A stretch of 64,000 nt of DNA from positions 1-64,000 of the forward strand of contig JAMONV010000054.1 in NCBI GenBank assembly GCA_027066365.1, read 5' to 3'. The notes beneath the pieces were generated by a model. The model worked only from the letters and a program-made list of their open reading frames with translations, was not told the origin of the DNA and searched no databases. Position numbers and translations under genes: made by a program. The DNA comes from Flavobacteriales bacterium. GTDB taxonomy: Bacteria; Bacteroidota; Bacteroidia; Flavobacteriales; Flavobacteriaceae. Positions 5,894 through 51,989 of the stretch are shown piece by piece (the first letter of the stretch is position 1; the number at the start of each line of letters is the position of its first letter).

Positions 5894-6727
5894 ATGAAAA
5901 AACTTGTTGTCTTATTTGTGATGTTCGGTTTGTTATCAGGCTCTTGCGTTTCCAAAAAAAAATATAGAGAAATGCAAGCAAAATATGAAAAAGCGGAAAA
6001 AAATTATAAAAAATTCCGCCAGAATTATACAGAATGTAAAGTGGAAAAGGCTCAATTACAAGCCCGTATCGATGCATTAAACAGTTCCAATCAAAATTTG
6101 CAAAAAGCATTGGATAAATGTATCAATTTAAACCAACAAGGCAATGTAAATATCAGCAAATTATTGGATGAAATTCGCAGTTCCAACGCTTATATCAAAA
6201 TGTTGATTGCCGAAAACAAAAAGAAAGATTCGCTCAATCAAGTATTGAAGGAACAACTTACCAAATCTATCAAAGATGTGAATGCCAATGATGAAGATTT
6301 GGATATCAAAGTGAAAAAAGGCGTGGTTTTCATCTCTTTGTCGGATAAAATGTTATTTAAATCCGGAAGCACACACATCAATCCCCAAGCGGACCGCGTT
6401 TTAGCTAAAATCGCCAAAATCCTTAATGCACACCCGGATTATGAAATTTTAGTCGTAGGGAACACGGACAATGTTCCTATCCACACAAAATGTATTAAAG
6501 ACAACTGGGATTTGAGCGCACTACGTGCGACGGCCATAGCCCGAAAATTACAAACCGATTTCAATGTGGATCCCAAGCGCATCACTGCCGGAGGACGCGG
6601 CGAATGGCAACCCAAAGCCGATAACAACACCGCCGAAGGACGTCAGAAAAATAGAAGAACCGAAATTATCCTTTTGCCGAAATTGGACGAATTCATGAAA
6701 CTGATGAATCAAGCACCACAACAATAA
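5894..6727 (+). CDS. OmpA-family peptidoglycan-binding lipoprotein
   Basis: An envelope protein of 277 residues predicted to anchor the outer membrane to peptidoglycan. The signal peptide ends at Cys18 in LLSGSC, a relaxed lipobox. Residues about 25-120 are a long charged coiled coil rich in Lys, Glu, Gln and Asn. Residues about 145-265 form an OmpA C-terminal domain, with NTDNVPI, the helix WDLSALRATAIA, GRGEWQP and the closing QKNRRTEI. The Asp and Arg used by this fold to bind diaminopimelate are in these last motifs. The arrangement of lipobox, coiled coil and OmpA domain is common in Bacteroidota. It is monocistronic. Confidence 0.92.
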   Translation: MKKLVVLFVMFGLLSGSCVSKKKYREMQAKYEKAEKNYKKFRQNYTECKVEKAQLQARIDALNSSNQNLQKALDKCINLNQQGNVNISKLLDEIRSSNAYIKMLIAENKKKDSLNQVLKEQLTKSIKDVNANDEDLDIKVKKGVVFISLSDKMLFKSGSTHINPQADRVLAKIAKILNAHPDYEILVVGNTDNVPIHTKCIKDNWDLSALRATAIARKLQTDFNVDPKRITAGGRGEWQPKADNNTAEGRQKNRRTEIILLPKLDEFMKLMNQAPQQ

Positions 6728-6740
6728 CTCATTCTATATC

Positions 6741-6776
6741 AAACACTTGGGTGTATATTTTTGCATCCAAGCGTTT
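6741..6776 (+). terminator. Possible terminator after the OmpA-like gene
   Basis: AAACaCTTGGgTG (6741-6753) can pair with CATCCAAGcGTTT (6764-6776) with one mismatch and one G-T pair. The following T-tract is poor, so this is a moderate prediction. Confidence 0.4.
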
Positions 6777-6824
6777 GCTTTAATAAAAATGATAAACCAT
6801 AGTTTAAAATATAAAAAAAATTAT

Positions 6825-6832
6825 TATATTTG
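6825..6832 (+). promoter_or_regulatory. -7 promoter element of the Roadblock operon
   Basis: TATATTTG matches TAnnTTTG. A TTTA lies 18 bases upstream. The leader to the ATG at 6891 is about 50 bases, longer than usual here, and contains two near-identical copies of AAAGGAAAATAAA followed by AGAGGAAAT just before the start codon. Confidence 0.55.
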
Positions 6833-6890
6833 CACCCCGATTTCGGCCTGCTAAAAAGGAAAATAAAAAGGAAAATAAAGAGGAAATTAT

Positions 6891-7562
6891 ATGTGGAAAA
6901 TTTTTGGAAAAAAAAACGAAGAAGCCGGAAATCATCAAATTATGCGAGAGCATAACGGCCATCAAAACAACTTGACAAAAAAAACTGCAAAACCACTCTT
7001 TCCGGCAAAACGAAACGGAGAAAAAAAACTAAAACCCGAGTTTCTTTCACAACGCAAAAATTCAAACGGAAATAAAACCTATAACAATTCGTTCAAGTTA
7101 TCCGGTTTATCCGAAATTCCCGAACAAAACAACCTGAAAAAAAACAATGAAACCTTAACGAAAATAAACCGGAACGAAAGCGCTGATAAAAAGAATTTAT
7201 ATAATCATTATGAAGAATTGGAATTTTTTTTTCTGAAGCTTATAAATGAATATCCGCAATCGATACTATTAGCCGGCATCAAGCCATTAAATGAAACTAA
7301 AGTTATTATTTTTGAGGATAAATATAAAAAAATCGATTTCCGTCCGTTTTTTCAACACATCGAATCCGTTCCGGTAAAGTTAAACGAAGAAAAATTTTCC
7401 AAGCCGGAATATATCCTGCTGAAATTGACCGGAAATAAAACAGCTTATATACATTTTCGAAACAAGCATATCGTATTTACCGTTTTCGATATGGAAAATA
7501 TCAATACGGGAATTATTATCAATATCATTGCCAAAGAACTCAATAACTTCAAAAACCTATAA
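6891..7562 (+). CDS. Unrecognised protein with basic disordered N-terminus and possible Roadblock-like C-terminal domain
   Basis: A protein of 223 residues in two halves. Residues 1-105 are rich in Lys, Asn, Glu and Gln with almost no hydrophobic clusters, so they are probably disordered. Residues about 107-223 look folded. I read them as helix (YEELEFFFLKLINEY), strand (SILLAGIKPL), strand (KVIIFED), helix (FRPFFQHIESV), three strands (YILLKL, TAYIHF, HIVFTVFD) and a last helix (TGIIINIIAKELNNF). That order matches the alpha-beta-beta-alpha-beta-beta-beta-alpha layout of Roadblock/LC7 domains. The next gene, two bases downstream, encodes a clear Roadblock-like protein, which supports a common fold and a hetero-oligomer. 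The fold call is inference from pattern only; no known family motif is recognised. Confidence 0.6.
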   Translation: MWKIFGKKNEEAGNHQIMREHNGHQNNLTKKTAKPLFPAKRNGEKKLKPEFLSQRKNSNGNKTYNNSFKLSGLSEIPEQNNLKKNNETLTKINRNESADKKNLYNHYEELEFFFLKLINEYPQSILLAGIKPLNETKVIIFEDKYKKIDFRPFFQHIESVPVKLNEEKFSKPEYILLKLTGNKTAYIHFRNKHIVFTVFDMENINTGIIINIIAKELNNFKNL

Positions 7563-7564
7563 CT

Positions 7565-7936
7565 ATGGACACAAAAAAATTAAACGAATCCATGATGGTC
7601 TTAAAAGAGGCCTTAGGAGACGCACTGATAAGTGCTGACATTTGGATTAAAGGTACGGGAACATCCATTGCCGGCTTCAACGGCAATCCTCGTGCCACTG
7701 CACTTTTCGATCAAATCACCAAAGACATCGTCAAAAGCTTGAAAAGCTCGGGATTCCCCGTTTTGGACAAGTATTACCTGATTAACTTGGCCGACGGAAA
7801 ACTCGTGGTTGTATTGAATCATGGCGATTATTTATGGAAAATGCTTGTGGACGGTGATAAAGCCAACCTCGGTTTGTTGTTGAATATTGCCATCCCTGAC
7901 GCTTTGAAAGCACTGGACGAAGCCATTGCGGGATAA
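7565..7936 (+). CDS. Roadblock/LC7 domain protein
   Basis: A single-domain cytoplasmic protein of 123 residues that resembles bacterial Roadblock/LC7 proteins, small dimerising scaffolds often paired with small GTPases (as MglB with MglA) or with signalling proteins. Visible elements are an initial helix, the strand pair ALISADIWI and SIAGFNGNP, a helix ATALFDQITKDIV, the strands YYLINLADGKLVVVLNHGDYLWKMLVD, and a final helix LGLLLNIAIPDALKALDEAI. The start lies 2 bases after the stop of the preceding gene, so the two are almost certainly co-transcribed. No MglA-like GTPase is encoded in the window, so the partner is unknown. Confidence 0.75.
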   Translation: MDTKKLNESMMVLKEALGDALISADIWIKGTGTSIAGFNGNPRATALFDQITKDIVKSLKSSGFPVLDKYYLINLADGKLVVVLNHGDYLWKMLVDGDKANLGLLLNIAIPDALKALDEAIAG

Positions 7937-7960: not shown

Positions 7961-7990
7961 AGGTCATTCGCTGTTGAATGGCCTTTTTTA
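7961..7990 (+). terminator. Terminator after the Roadblock operon
   Basis: AGGTCATTC (7961-7969) pairs with GAATGGCCT (7976-7984), with one G-T pair, a 6-base loop and a following T-run. It sits between convergent genes. Confidence 0.7.
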
Positions 7991-48932: not shown

Positions 48933-49643
48933 TTAATCTAATTCCACCGGCAAATATCCCGCCCAGTAAACTCCCGATTCATCAAGGCCGGCCCGAACGG
49001 CATACACTTCGATTCCTTCCGAAACCACTCGCTTAAGCATATCCGCATAAGCGTTGTGAATTTCCGGCGCAGGTCTGAAAATTCTCACGTCCAACCGCTG
49101 AACCACAAATATCATTGCGGCACGATAGCCTTCTTTCTTCGCTTGTAGCAATTCTTCCAAATGTTTTAAACCGCGCTTCGTAGGAGCATCGGGGAAAAGC
49201 GCATAATCTCCCTTTCGATAAGTTACGTTTTTAATTTCGATAAATAATTTTTCCCGCTTATTTTCCAAATATAAATCAAACCTGCTATTGCGAAATGTAA
49301 TTTCCTTGAAAACCTTATTAAAAGTTTCAAATCCGGCCAAACGGTTTCTTTTCAATGCACTGCAAATCAATACGTTAGGAATTTTCGTATTCACCCCGAT
49401 CCATGTTTCACCGTTATGTATGGCTTCCCATGTATAAGCTGTTTTCCGTTTGGAATTTTGCGAAGGCGTCATCAGAATTTCGGCCCCGGGGATCAAACAA
49501 CTTTTCAAACTTCCCGTATTGGTCGAATGTGCCGTTACAATACGTCCGTCCGGTAATTCCGCATCCACCAAAAAACGTTTGTAGCGTTTAATAAATCTCG
49601 CTTTCACCGGTTGCACCGGAAAACGATAAAGATAATCAGGCAT
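48933..49643 (-). CDS. sfsA: SfsA family DNA/RNA-binding nuclease
   Basis: A 236-residue protein of the SfsA family: an N-terminal OB-fold nucleic-acid-binding domain ([22 protein letters not shown], then [17 protein letters not shown]) and a C-terminal PD-(D/E)xK-like nuclease domain. The putative catalytic residues are in [24 protein letters not shown], with Asp and Glu-x-Lys, followed by [16 protein letters not shown]. SfsA of E. coli was named for its effect on sugar fermentation and later shown to have nuclease activity. It overlaps gldG by 8 bases and so is in the gldFG operon. Confidence 0.94.
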
Positions 49644-51261
49644 AATGTTTTTTTCTCAAATATTGATACATTATAACGGGAAACGAAACCAAAAGCAAAG
49701 GCAATAAAAAGCCGAACCATTGCCAAAAACCACCTTCTGCCACCGCCCGGTTTTTATCAATTAATGCAGGTCGCACTTCCTTGGTCTTTAACAAAAACAA
49801 TCCCGATTTATCCGTGAGATAATGCACGGCATTCAACAAAAAACTCAGATTATCAAACGTCATCCGACTATACCGGTCATATCCCAAAGGTATTGGACCG
49901 TTTCGTCCTACATCGTTTTTGATAATATCTCCGTCGGCAATCAAAATCATCTTGGTTTTGGCGCTGTCTTTGGTGGAAATATCGAAAGGCTTAACCCGGC
50001 CTGCATAGGCCGATTTGAACTGTCCTTCCAGCAATATTCCGAAAATCTTTTCCCCCGCATTGAAGCGCGCCGGATCGGGTTTCCGTGCAATTTCCGAAAA
50101 ATTGATTTGAACCGGAACCCCGATAATTTCCGTATGTGGCGAACTCTTGAGCAATACGGTTTTAGGCGGTCCGCCCGGCAACGTATCGATAATACTAACA
50201 AAATCCAATTTGATCTTACCCGTATTTTTTCCGATGGGATTGTCTTGCTCGGGAATGACCAATGGCGAATAATACCATGGAAACGATTGCAGTTGAGGGT
50301 TTTTACCCACTTGACCCACTTTAAGTGTTACCGGTGCCGCTTGCCAATCTTTTACCAATACCGGTTCCAACCGCACCCCGTAGCCGAATAACCAATCCGT
50401 TAAATCCAATTCGGCGTTGAGCGCATAAGTCCTGTGCCGATACATCAAAGTATCCTTGTGTGCCTTCACCGGATCGATCAATAGAAGCAATTTGCCGCCA
50501 TTCATAAGGTATTGGTCCAGTGTAAATTTTTCTTCGGGCGAAAATTTTTCCGTAGGCTTTGCCACGATGACCAAATCGAATTGCTTTAATTGCTCCAATG
50601 TGCGCTGCGGATTAACCTTGATGCTGTCCAACGTAAACGGTGCCAAACGGTAAAAATCACGTAATGCAGTGAGAAACGAAGCTAGATAAACATCCGGCAA
50701 CTCACCGTTCCCTTTCAAGATTGCCACCGCCGGTTTCTCCTTCACCAATAGCTCGGAAAAACGGTATGCAAAAGCATATTCCAATTGCTCGATACTACGG
50801 TTGATTTGTTCTTCTACTCCTATCCCGGGAATATCCACCAATAAAGGAACTTGAACCGATTCATCCCCAATGAAAATCACCGCCCACGGAAATACCGTTA
50901 TGCCCGTAAGTTCGTTTCCTTTTCTGACGGTAATCTCGGCGGGAATCATTCCTTCCCGCTGTAATTTCCCGGAAAGATTACTCTTCAAAGGATCCGTAAA
51001 ATCAAAGGTTATCTTCGAATTGATATGGTGAAATTGCTGTAGCAACATCTGCGTTTCTTCGGATAATTTCCGGAAATACGACGGAAAAGAACCTTTCAAG
51101 TAAACCTCAATATGAACCGGCTCACGGACGGAATTCAACAATTTAATCGTTGCCGGCGCCAATGTATAACGCTTATCCGCAGTTAAATCGAAACGTTTGT
51201 GAGATAATAATGCCACTGCTAGCAATCCCATTAACAAAACTATGATATAAATCCTCCTCAT
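49636..51261 (-). CDS. gldG: Gliding motility ABC-transporter component GldG
   Basis: A membrane-anchored protein of about 541 residues with one transmembrane helix at each end and a large extracytoplasmic part. GldG belongs with GldA (ATPase) and GldF (permease) to an ABC system first linked to gliding in Flavobacterium johnsoniae. The N-terminus shows HKRFDLTADKRYTLAPATIKLL, the characteristic start of this family. Residues 250-280 contain LLIDPVKAHK of the GldG/intraflagellar-type domain. I chose ATG 51261 because it overlaps the gldF stop in the ATGA fashion of this genome; longer starts at 51285 and 51327 exist. No gldA gene is in the window. Confidence 0.9.
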   Translation of the reverse strand: MRRIYIIVLLMGLLAVALLSHKRFDLTADKRYTLAPATIKLLNSVREPVHIEVYLKGSFPSYFRKLSEETQMLLQQFHHINSKITFDFTDPLKSNLSGKLQREGMIPAEITVRKGNELTGITVFPWAVIFIGDESVQVPLLVDIPGIGVEEQINRSIEQLEYAFAYRFSELLVKEKPAVAILKGNGELPDVYLASFLTALRDFYRLAPFTLDSIKVNPQRTLEQLKQFDLVIVAKPTEKFSPEEKFTLDQYLMNGGKLLLLIDPVKAHKDTLMYRHRTYALNAELDLTDWLFGYGVRLEPVLVKDWQAAPVTLKVGQVGKNPQLQSFPWYYSPLVIPEQDNPIGKNTGKIKLDFVSIIDTLPGGPPKTVLLKSSPHTEIIGVPVQINFSEIARKPDPARFNAGEKIFGILLEGQFKSAYAGRVKPFDISTKDSAKTKMILIADGDIIKNDVGRNGPIPLGYDRYSRMTFDNLSFLLNAVHYLTDKSGLFLLKTKEVRPALIDKNRAVAEGGFWQWFGFLLPLLLVSFPVIMYQYLRKKHYA

Positions 51262-51989
51262 CGACGGTGTTTTTTTACCTGCCATACGGCTAAAAGCAAA
51301 AAGATTATCGTCCAAAACAGCATCCATGCCACATCCCCCAGATATATTAATCCTTTACCGAAATGCTCGTATACATTCATCAACGAAGTGGAACGCAAAT
51401 AAAAATCGGCCGAACCGAACAAATTGAAATTGCCCAATCCGTGCAATCCGTAAAAAATCAAAAAATTCAGAAAAACACCGCCCAAATATGCAGCCATCTG
51501 TCCTTCCGTTGAAGCGGAAACATAAACGCTAACCGCCCCGAAAACAGCGGATAACAAAATCAATCCCATATAACCCGCTATGATAATCCCCGCATCGGGA
51601 CGATTACCCGGAAGCGCAAGTCTTTCAATCGTATATACATACACCAAGGTCGGCAATAAAACGAATAAAACAAAAATCCACACCGCCAACCACTTACCCG
51701 ATACCAATGAAAAAACCCGTAAAGGTTTGGTGAGTATAATTTCAATCGTCCCCGTTCGATATTCAGCCGATAAAGCACGCATCCCTATGGCGGGAATAAG
51801 AAACATTAATAACCATGGGGCCAAATCGAAAAATGGCGTCAATTCCGCATAAGCACTATAGAGAATATTGAAATTACCGTCCATCAACCACAAAAATAAT
51901 CCGCTAACCGCTAAAAAAACCACCGGAACAATCAATCCGGTCCACCCCGAAAAAAATCCCTTGAATTCCTTACTAAAAATATTCCACAT
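51258..51989 (-). CDS. gldF: Gliding motility ABC-2 permease GldF
   Basis: An inner-membrane permease of 243 residues with six hydrophobic segments, of the ABC-2 type. The N-terminal part FSKEFKGFFSGWTGLIVPVVFLAVSGLFLW and the following FDLAPWLLMFLIPAIGMRALSAEYRTGTIEIILTKP are characteristic of GldF and related ABC-2 permeases; the RTGTIEILLT motif is the coupling-helix region. It lies at the head of gldF-gldG-sfsA. No promoter with the -7 consensus is seen before it. Confidence 0.92.
   Translation of the reverse strand: MWNIFSKEFKGFFSGWTGLIVPVVFLAVSGLFLWLMDGNFNILYSAYAELTPFFDLAPWLLMFLIPAIGMRALSAEYRTGTIEIILTKPLRVFSLVSGKWLAVWIFVLFVLLPTLVYVYTIERLALPGNRPDAGIIIAGYMGLILLSAVFGAVSVYVSASTEGQMAAYLGGVFLNFLIFYGLHGLGNFNLFGSADFYLRSTSLMNVYEHFGKGLIYLGDVAWMLFWTIIFLLLAVWQVKKHRR

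Follow-up and report, generated by a model that had tools for sequence, protein, structure and literature searches.

The closest described systems to the gene pair reported here are built around the Roadblock fold, which MglB (Myxococcus, Thermus) has in common with both of its genes, here called gene A and gene B. According to the accessible part of the report on them, the Roadblock paralogues MglB and MglC each form homodimers, which bind one another in a 4:2 ratio, and a gly-rich beta1-beta2 turn makes the contact of MglC with MglB as well as that of LAMTOR5 with LAMTOR2-3 (PMC7949163). The Myxococcus proteins are likewise two diverged Roadblock paralogues, there acting together; however, MglB still serves MglA, and the aromatic-start tail of gene A has no counterpart there, as far as the accessible text goes (PMC7949163). 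LAMTOR/Ragulator is described, in the part of the source that is available, as a hetero-Roadblock scaffold held at the membrane (PMC5680233). For genes A and B both the hetero-Roadblock scaffold and its place at the membrane are predictions, and Ragulator differs in that its anchor is a separate protein (p18) and in that it recruits Rag GTPases. In a survey from 2014, orphan MglB homologues without a coupled MglA made up 328 of 749; within its accessible part none of these orphans had been characterised experimentally, and PATAN genes near MglA were already known (PMC4316618). That set was gathered with the Robl_LC7 model and BLAST (PMC4316618), whereas genes A and B are missed by the Pfam model; they also differ from the orphans in coming as an asymmetric pair. 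In Methylacidiphilum, the HGbRL protein is a globin linked to a Roadblock domain, according to the available part of its description (PMC4476040). HGbRL is one fused protein with a globin of another class, while here globin and Roadblock were not found within one protein: they are separate genes in 4 of 15 gene B loci, the globin is of the protoglobin class, and it lies away from the locus in the window. Globin-Roadblock fusions, orphan MglB proteins and mutually binding Roadblock paralogues are already known; what is new is an asymmetric Roadblock pair below the reach of Pfam, with exchangeable fronts, in cells without detectable MglA.

The window, that is, the whole stretch of 64,000 nucleotides of DNA that was analysed, lies on contig C54 of a Flavobacteriales genome, an assembly of 2.03 Mb in 64 contigs that is 99% complete. 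The coordinates of the two genes (Table 1) and the 2 bases between them, both genes being on the + strand, are exactly those originally predicted. Read by eye, the gene on the 5' side of the pair is OmpA-like and the one on the 3' side is convergent. A conservon (Cvn/Mfp) would unite histidine kinase, Roadblock, CvnC-type and small GTPase genes in one operon; with these flanks, and with no MglA-type gene found in the genome, the locus does not look like one. The -7 consensus of Bacteroidota promoters is TAnnTTTG, and a fit to it is found upstream of gene A, but with 6 matches on both strands of 3669 bases against 5.3 expected, the upstream region is not enriched over chance. Hairpins followed by a T run, of the kind seen behind gene B, number 2 in the region against 1.6 expected from shuffles.

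Table 1. Features of the gene A-gene B locus, with positions in the window.
Feature	Position	Strand	Basis or remark
Gene A: tail and Roadblock-fold partner, 223 aa	6891..7562	+	reading frame, fold model
Gene B: conserved protein of 123 aa with a single Roadblock-fold domain	7565..7936	+	reading frame, fold model
N-terminal aromatic peptide MWKIFGKKN, gene A residues 1-9	6891..6917	+	most constant part of the tail
Basic tail of gene A, residues 1-105, net charge +12	6891..7205	+	charge count
Roadblock-fold domain of gene A, residues 100-223	7188..7559	+	predicted model, homology to gene B
TATATTTG, fits the Bacteroidota -7 consensus	6825..6832	+	58 bases 5' of gene A
Terminator-like hairpin, then T run, directly 3' of gene B	7961..7984	+	10 pairs

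At thresholds as loose as E 10, Pfam and NCBIfam give no match to gene A or gene B, and neither protein is matched by Robl_LC7 (PF03259), a model whose sole match in the window's own genome is a gene on contig C15. The original prediction that gene B encodes a Roadblock/LC7 protein is right by predicted structure, and could not have been derived from the Pfam or NCBIfam models because neither set matches the gene. AlphaFold2 gave a model of gene B from a 14-row alignment (pLDDT 79, pTM 0.69) and one of gene A residues 100-223 (pLDDT 87, pTM 0.81); the alignment for the latter held 27 rows, 14 of A and 13 of B, which leaves the models partly dependent on each other. In both, strands and helices follow the order alpha-beta-beta-alpha-beta-beta-beta-alpha. 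The best solved match of gene B is Asgard Roadblock3 (9jue; Z 16.2, rmsd 1.8, 114 residues aligned), MglB (6hjm) scores Z 15.8 with rmsd 1.9 over 115 residues, and the structure search returned 87 matches at E<=0.001. For the gene A domain the best solved match is an Asgard Roadblock (7yh1; Z 12.7, rmsd 2.4, 113 aligned), with MglB (6h5b) at Z 12.3 and rmsd 2.5 over 116 residues; Foldseek is weaker here and reaches E<=0.001 for 2 entries, each a chain of a Rag-Ragulator complex. Profilin, considered for gene A, was outranked by Roadblock and Rag entries in the structure search. The predicted models thus lie near solved Roadblocks over most of the domain, and as modelled both gene B and the C-terminal part of gene A are of the Roadblock fold, the latter as had been proposed.

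It had also been proposed that the end of gene A repeats the helix and strand order of gene B, and this reflects real homology: aligned with hhalign, the two profiles match with a probability of 98 (E 7.3e-14, 113 columns), and on this profile evidence the gene A domain and gene B are homologous and distantly related. A profile of 14 gene B sequences, run with filters off and a nominal 2000 sequences, lists, at E<=5, every one of the 14 gene A proteins that carry the domain (4e-25 to 0.8; 8 of them below 1e-3, the window's own at 0.011), matches three stand-alone A-like genes at 1e-5 to 4e-5, and lists none of the 56 other reading frames of the window. When the window row is removed from the gene A profile, the window domain is recovered at E 1.4e-9, a leave-one-out score that reused an alignment built with the left-out row; the full gene A profile, scored against the same rows from which it was built, lists one of the 56 other frames (E 0.37). 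The sequence bridge to canonical Roadblocks is weak. Against 13 canonical rows, the gene B profile is not significant (probability 2.7) and the gene A profile is weak (52.7); an indirect bridge is the match of the gene A profile to a canonical-type Roadblock of genome G006 (E 2.3e-5 for 2000 sequences), while that on C15 is reached at only E 2.3. Membership in the Roadblock family therefore rests mainly on structure, and the pair is classed by fold, not by a sequence model. Among PDB sequences, the matches to A and B bear unrelated names and score no better than E 0.27. PADLOC and PHROGs were uninformative, with a single PHROG of unknown function (E 0.02), and viral contigs gave no relative by single-protein query. 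A defence system was dropped as a candidate, PADLOC being without a match.

Gene B is present in six of the nine genomes of the genus, and one of the three genomes without it is 98% complete. Samples of 296 genomes of the order and 395 of the phylum contained it once each, both times in the window's own genome, and a named genome set gave 12 loci, 7 of which repeat contigs already found. There are 16 distinct gene B loci, with upstream DNA visible in 15; the sixteenth (G003 C11) starts at the edge of its contig and could represent the second half of C112. A co-directional gene lies immediately 5' of gene B in 15/15 loci, at a spacing of -4 to +44 bp, and in 14 of them it ends in a diverged Roadblock domain, the least certain being that of G007 (leave-one-out E 1.7e-4). 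In this the pair differs from MglB. The original prediction called for conservation of the gene pair, and this is what is seen: nowhere among the 15 loci is gene B found without an upstream gene. The exception as regards the domain is C15 in the window's own genome, where the upstream protein of 293 aa matches none of three profiles; this genome has two stand-alone pairs (C54, C48) in addition to the third gene B on C15. Three genomes of the genus have A-like genes without an adjoining gene B. Because of these genes and of the C15 protein, the pairing of A and B is not absolute. The C15 protein has a segment FWKRLFGSS near its C-terminus. The three stand-alone A-like genes (L084 674-1675, L085 2263-3072, L086 4379-5296) each stand tail-to-tail with an ArgK/MeaB-like P-loop gene, named by reading.

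The two genes diverge to unequal degrees. Over 13 of the 15 loci (omitting C15, with no domain upstream, and G003 C112, where gene B is cut by the contig end), mean identity is 18% for the Roadblock part of gene A vs 54% for gene B, and the former is less conserved in 78/78 comparisons. The divergences of A and B correlate moderately (r 0.33, matched by 61 of 10000 permutations). Judged from these sequences, gene B resembles a core under constraint, and gene A a variable adaptor.

Gene A proteins come with three kinds of front end. In eight loci (the window, C48, G008 C55, G003 C211, G007, G001, L033 and L034) there is a long tail of 86-168 residues before the last 118, with a net charge of +6 to +22 in all eight and N-terminal peptides such as MWKIFGKK, MWKLFG, MWNIFKKK and MGLLDFLFG. 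In G003 C112, G006 C145 and G008 C88 the protein has 142-143 aa and nearly no tail. In L036, L040 and L041 it has 310-331 aa, with a DUF4388-like region ahead (E 5e-5, 1e-4 and 2e-6, of which the first two narrowly miss the Pfam cut-off), which is presumably a PATAN domain. To judge by these fronts, gene A resembles an adaptor of modular build. Residues 2-9 hold 22 F or W over 11 proteins, against 3.4 in shuffled tails; these are 8 paired and 3 stand-alone proteins, one of which (the G008 stand-alone gene) entered the count without its first residue. None of 20000 shuffles reached this count, although this is not a probability from independent samples because the rows include several close relatives and the choice of peptide followed inspection of the alignment. 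Two or more F/W in residues 2-9 occur in 6 of 56 other window frames, and on visual inspection 5 of these 6 resemble the N-termini of signal or membrane sequences, including that of the transporter-like gene at 51258-51989 described below. The basic, disordered tail of the original prediction stands as to its charge over residues 1-105, disorder being judged by composition alone. The emphasis on basic residues holds for the eight long-tailed paired loci and fails for the three stand-alone relatives, whose tails begin with aromatic residues as well, yet are acidic (net charge -5 to -17); basic charge is therefore not the constant feature, and the constant element is the W/F peptide at the extreme N-terminus. 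Nor is the tail present everywhere: elsewhere it is replaced by a DUF4388-like domain or is nearly absent. The aromatic-basic N-terminal peptide of gene A, a putative membrane anchor, resembles the membrane-targeting end of MinD. LAMTOR/Ragulator is held at the membrane via an N-terminal lipid anchor. Elsewhere in the window, at 49636-51989, genes read as a GldF/GldG transporter of Bacteroidota gliding (named by reading), and a transporter-like gene at 51258-51989 starts MWNIFSKEFKGFF, resembling the N-terminus of gene A.

In 4 of the 15 loci (C15, G003 C112, G006 C145, G008 C88) gene B belongs to a four-gene cluster of Roadblock, protoglobin, upstream gene and gene B itself. Pfam identifies the Roadblock of C15 (E 2e-10) and the protoglobins of C15 (E 1e-16) and G006 (E 6e-16); the remaining Roadblock and globin members were assigned by eye from likeness. 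On C15 (L015 6480-8692) the members are a canonical Roadblock, a protoglobin, the 293-aa protein and the third copy of gene B. The globin there is the only protoglobin of the window's own genome, away from the pair in the window. It has a histidine that aligns with a histidine of Tlr1989, and we take the aligned segment to hold the proximal ligand. No paper combining 'roadblock' and 'protoglobin' was found in the open-access literature searched. In the loci with a DUF4388-like front the neighbours are others: PAS-SpoIIE phosphatase genes lie near gene B in all three, and SiaC-like genes were matched in L036 and L041 and read by eye in L040, with the SiaC and SpoIIE neighbours mostly on the opposite strand. 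A SiaC query had no match in any of the nine genus genomes, nor in control genomes. At L041 a further protein of 126 aa (6468-6848) stands just 3' of gene B, followed by the SiaC gene, and matches the canonical Roadblock profile at E 1.6e-6 (2000 sequences).

The absence of an MglA-type GTPase from the window, noted in the original prediction, extends to the nine genus genomes searched. The Arf model has 24 matches in the nine genus genomes, all 24 in frames of 387-910 aa; the three of the window's own genome read as MnmE, HflX and IF-2 (named by reading), and neither an Arf-model nor an MglA match falls on contig C54. The MglA query, an MglA-like protein of G409 that is itself matched by the Arf and Ras models, gave no credible gene in the nine genomes at E<=1, the sole match being a fragment in G005 (E 0.016) with two internal stops. 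In outgroups it was strong in 4/4 (E 5e-46 or better), controls that include G409, the query's own genome, and G335, where MglA was already known. Four of the nine genus assemblies are only 80-91% complete, while that of the window is 99% complete. Unlike MglB, then, the pair is below Pfam detection and has no MglA gene nearby and none found in the genus, and its cells appear to be without an MglA-type GTPase. In another family of the phylum, G335 and G409 have a cluster (L102 5298-8831, L103 4413-7801) of Roadblock, MglA-like GTPase, Roadblock-like gene, DUF4388-Roadblock fusion, an unknown gene and protoglobin, the Roadblock-like gene being below the cut-off (E 0.05); Pfam was run on the copy of G335. 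Roadblock, globin and MglA-like genes stand together there; short of a phylogenetic tree, the arrangement suggests that the GTPase was lost in the genus while its Roadblock and globin components were retained. Tandem Roadblock pairs of ~120-130 and 170 aa occur in other families of the phylum (L104 6482-7410, L105 4218-5163, L106 4043-4963); these stretches have no frame >=90 aa with GxxxxGK[ST], and MglA-like genes are found elsewhere in the same genomes.

Taken together, the two-gene operon is probably, though far from certainly, a GTPase-free hetero-Roadblock scaffold, the pairing of A with B being read from linkage and homology. It is unlikely that the pair is instead an ordinary orphan regulator of the MglB type, working with a housekeeping GTPase or with a P-loop GTPase that goes unrecognised elsewhere in the genome. 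MglB-type proteins normally serve MglA, whose GTP hydrolysis MglB stimulates as its GAP, the cluster of G335 and G409 retains an MglA-like gene among several Roadblock genes, a DUF4388-Roadblock fusion and a protoglobin, and the ArgK/MeaB-like gene adjoins the stand-alone A-like gene in three genus genomes. The A-B pair may have a divergent or unrelated GTPase partner. Such a regulator is hard to reconcile with an MglA query that fails in the nine genus genomes and succeeds in every outgroup, or with Arf-model matches that all lie in long frames and read as MnmE, HflX and IF-2 in the window's own genome, and the A-like and P-loop genes are convergent and form no operon.

Doubtful, but with a better claim, is an arrangement of A and B as stacked homodimers, like MglC sandwiched by MglB, in place of a heterodimer: the MglB and MglC homodimers bind in just such a 4:2 ratio, as the accessible text has it (PMC7949163), and the gly-rich beta1-beta2 turn of gene B (G30, G32) is among its best-conserved positions. 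For the tail, binding to nucleic acid and not to membrane or protein is improbable. The positive charge of the eight long-tailed paired proteins would suit it, but the stand-alone relatives are acidic with the same aromatic N-terminus, and three of the four-gene clusters nearly lack the tail.

For the hetero-Roadblock scaffold, gene B would be the conserved core subunit, and gene A a partner that has diverged and evolves fast, its Roadblock domain pairing with gene B; we infer a heterodimer. The front end of gene A would set what the pair binds and where. In the window this front would be a flexible basic tail, with the aromatic-basic start most likely serving for docking or as an anchor at the membrane interface. 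The module would work without an MglA-family GTPase, relaying signals or gathering signalling partners. In the sister loci its input could be the protoglobin, as a putative haem sensor, and the canonical Roadblock protein from the same gene cluster, and in more distant relatives PAS-SpoIIE phosphatases and SiaC are the neighbours of the module. A bolder version, which we regard as rather unlikely, makes the GTPase-free heterodimer an adaptor for the output of a haem-globin sensor, in which globin and canonical Roadblock switch the A-B pair and the fronts route the signal. If this were true, the front ends (membrane-anchoring tail, DUF4388-like domain) would be interchangeable and lead to different destinations, and the pair would be a Ragulator-like scaffold that outlived its GTPase. 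For the family as a whole, it is worth noting that Roadblock-fold proteins exist below the reach of the standard Pfam model. With a compact linked pair, no detectable MglA and natural variants of one subunit, Roadblock function without a GTPase is now testable.
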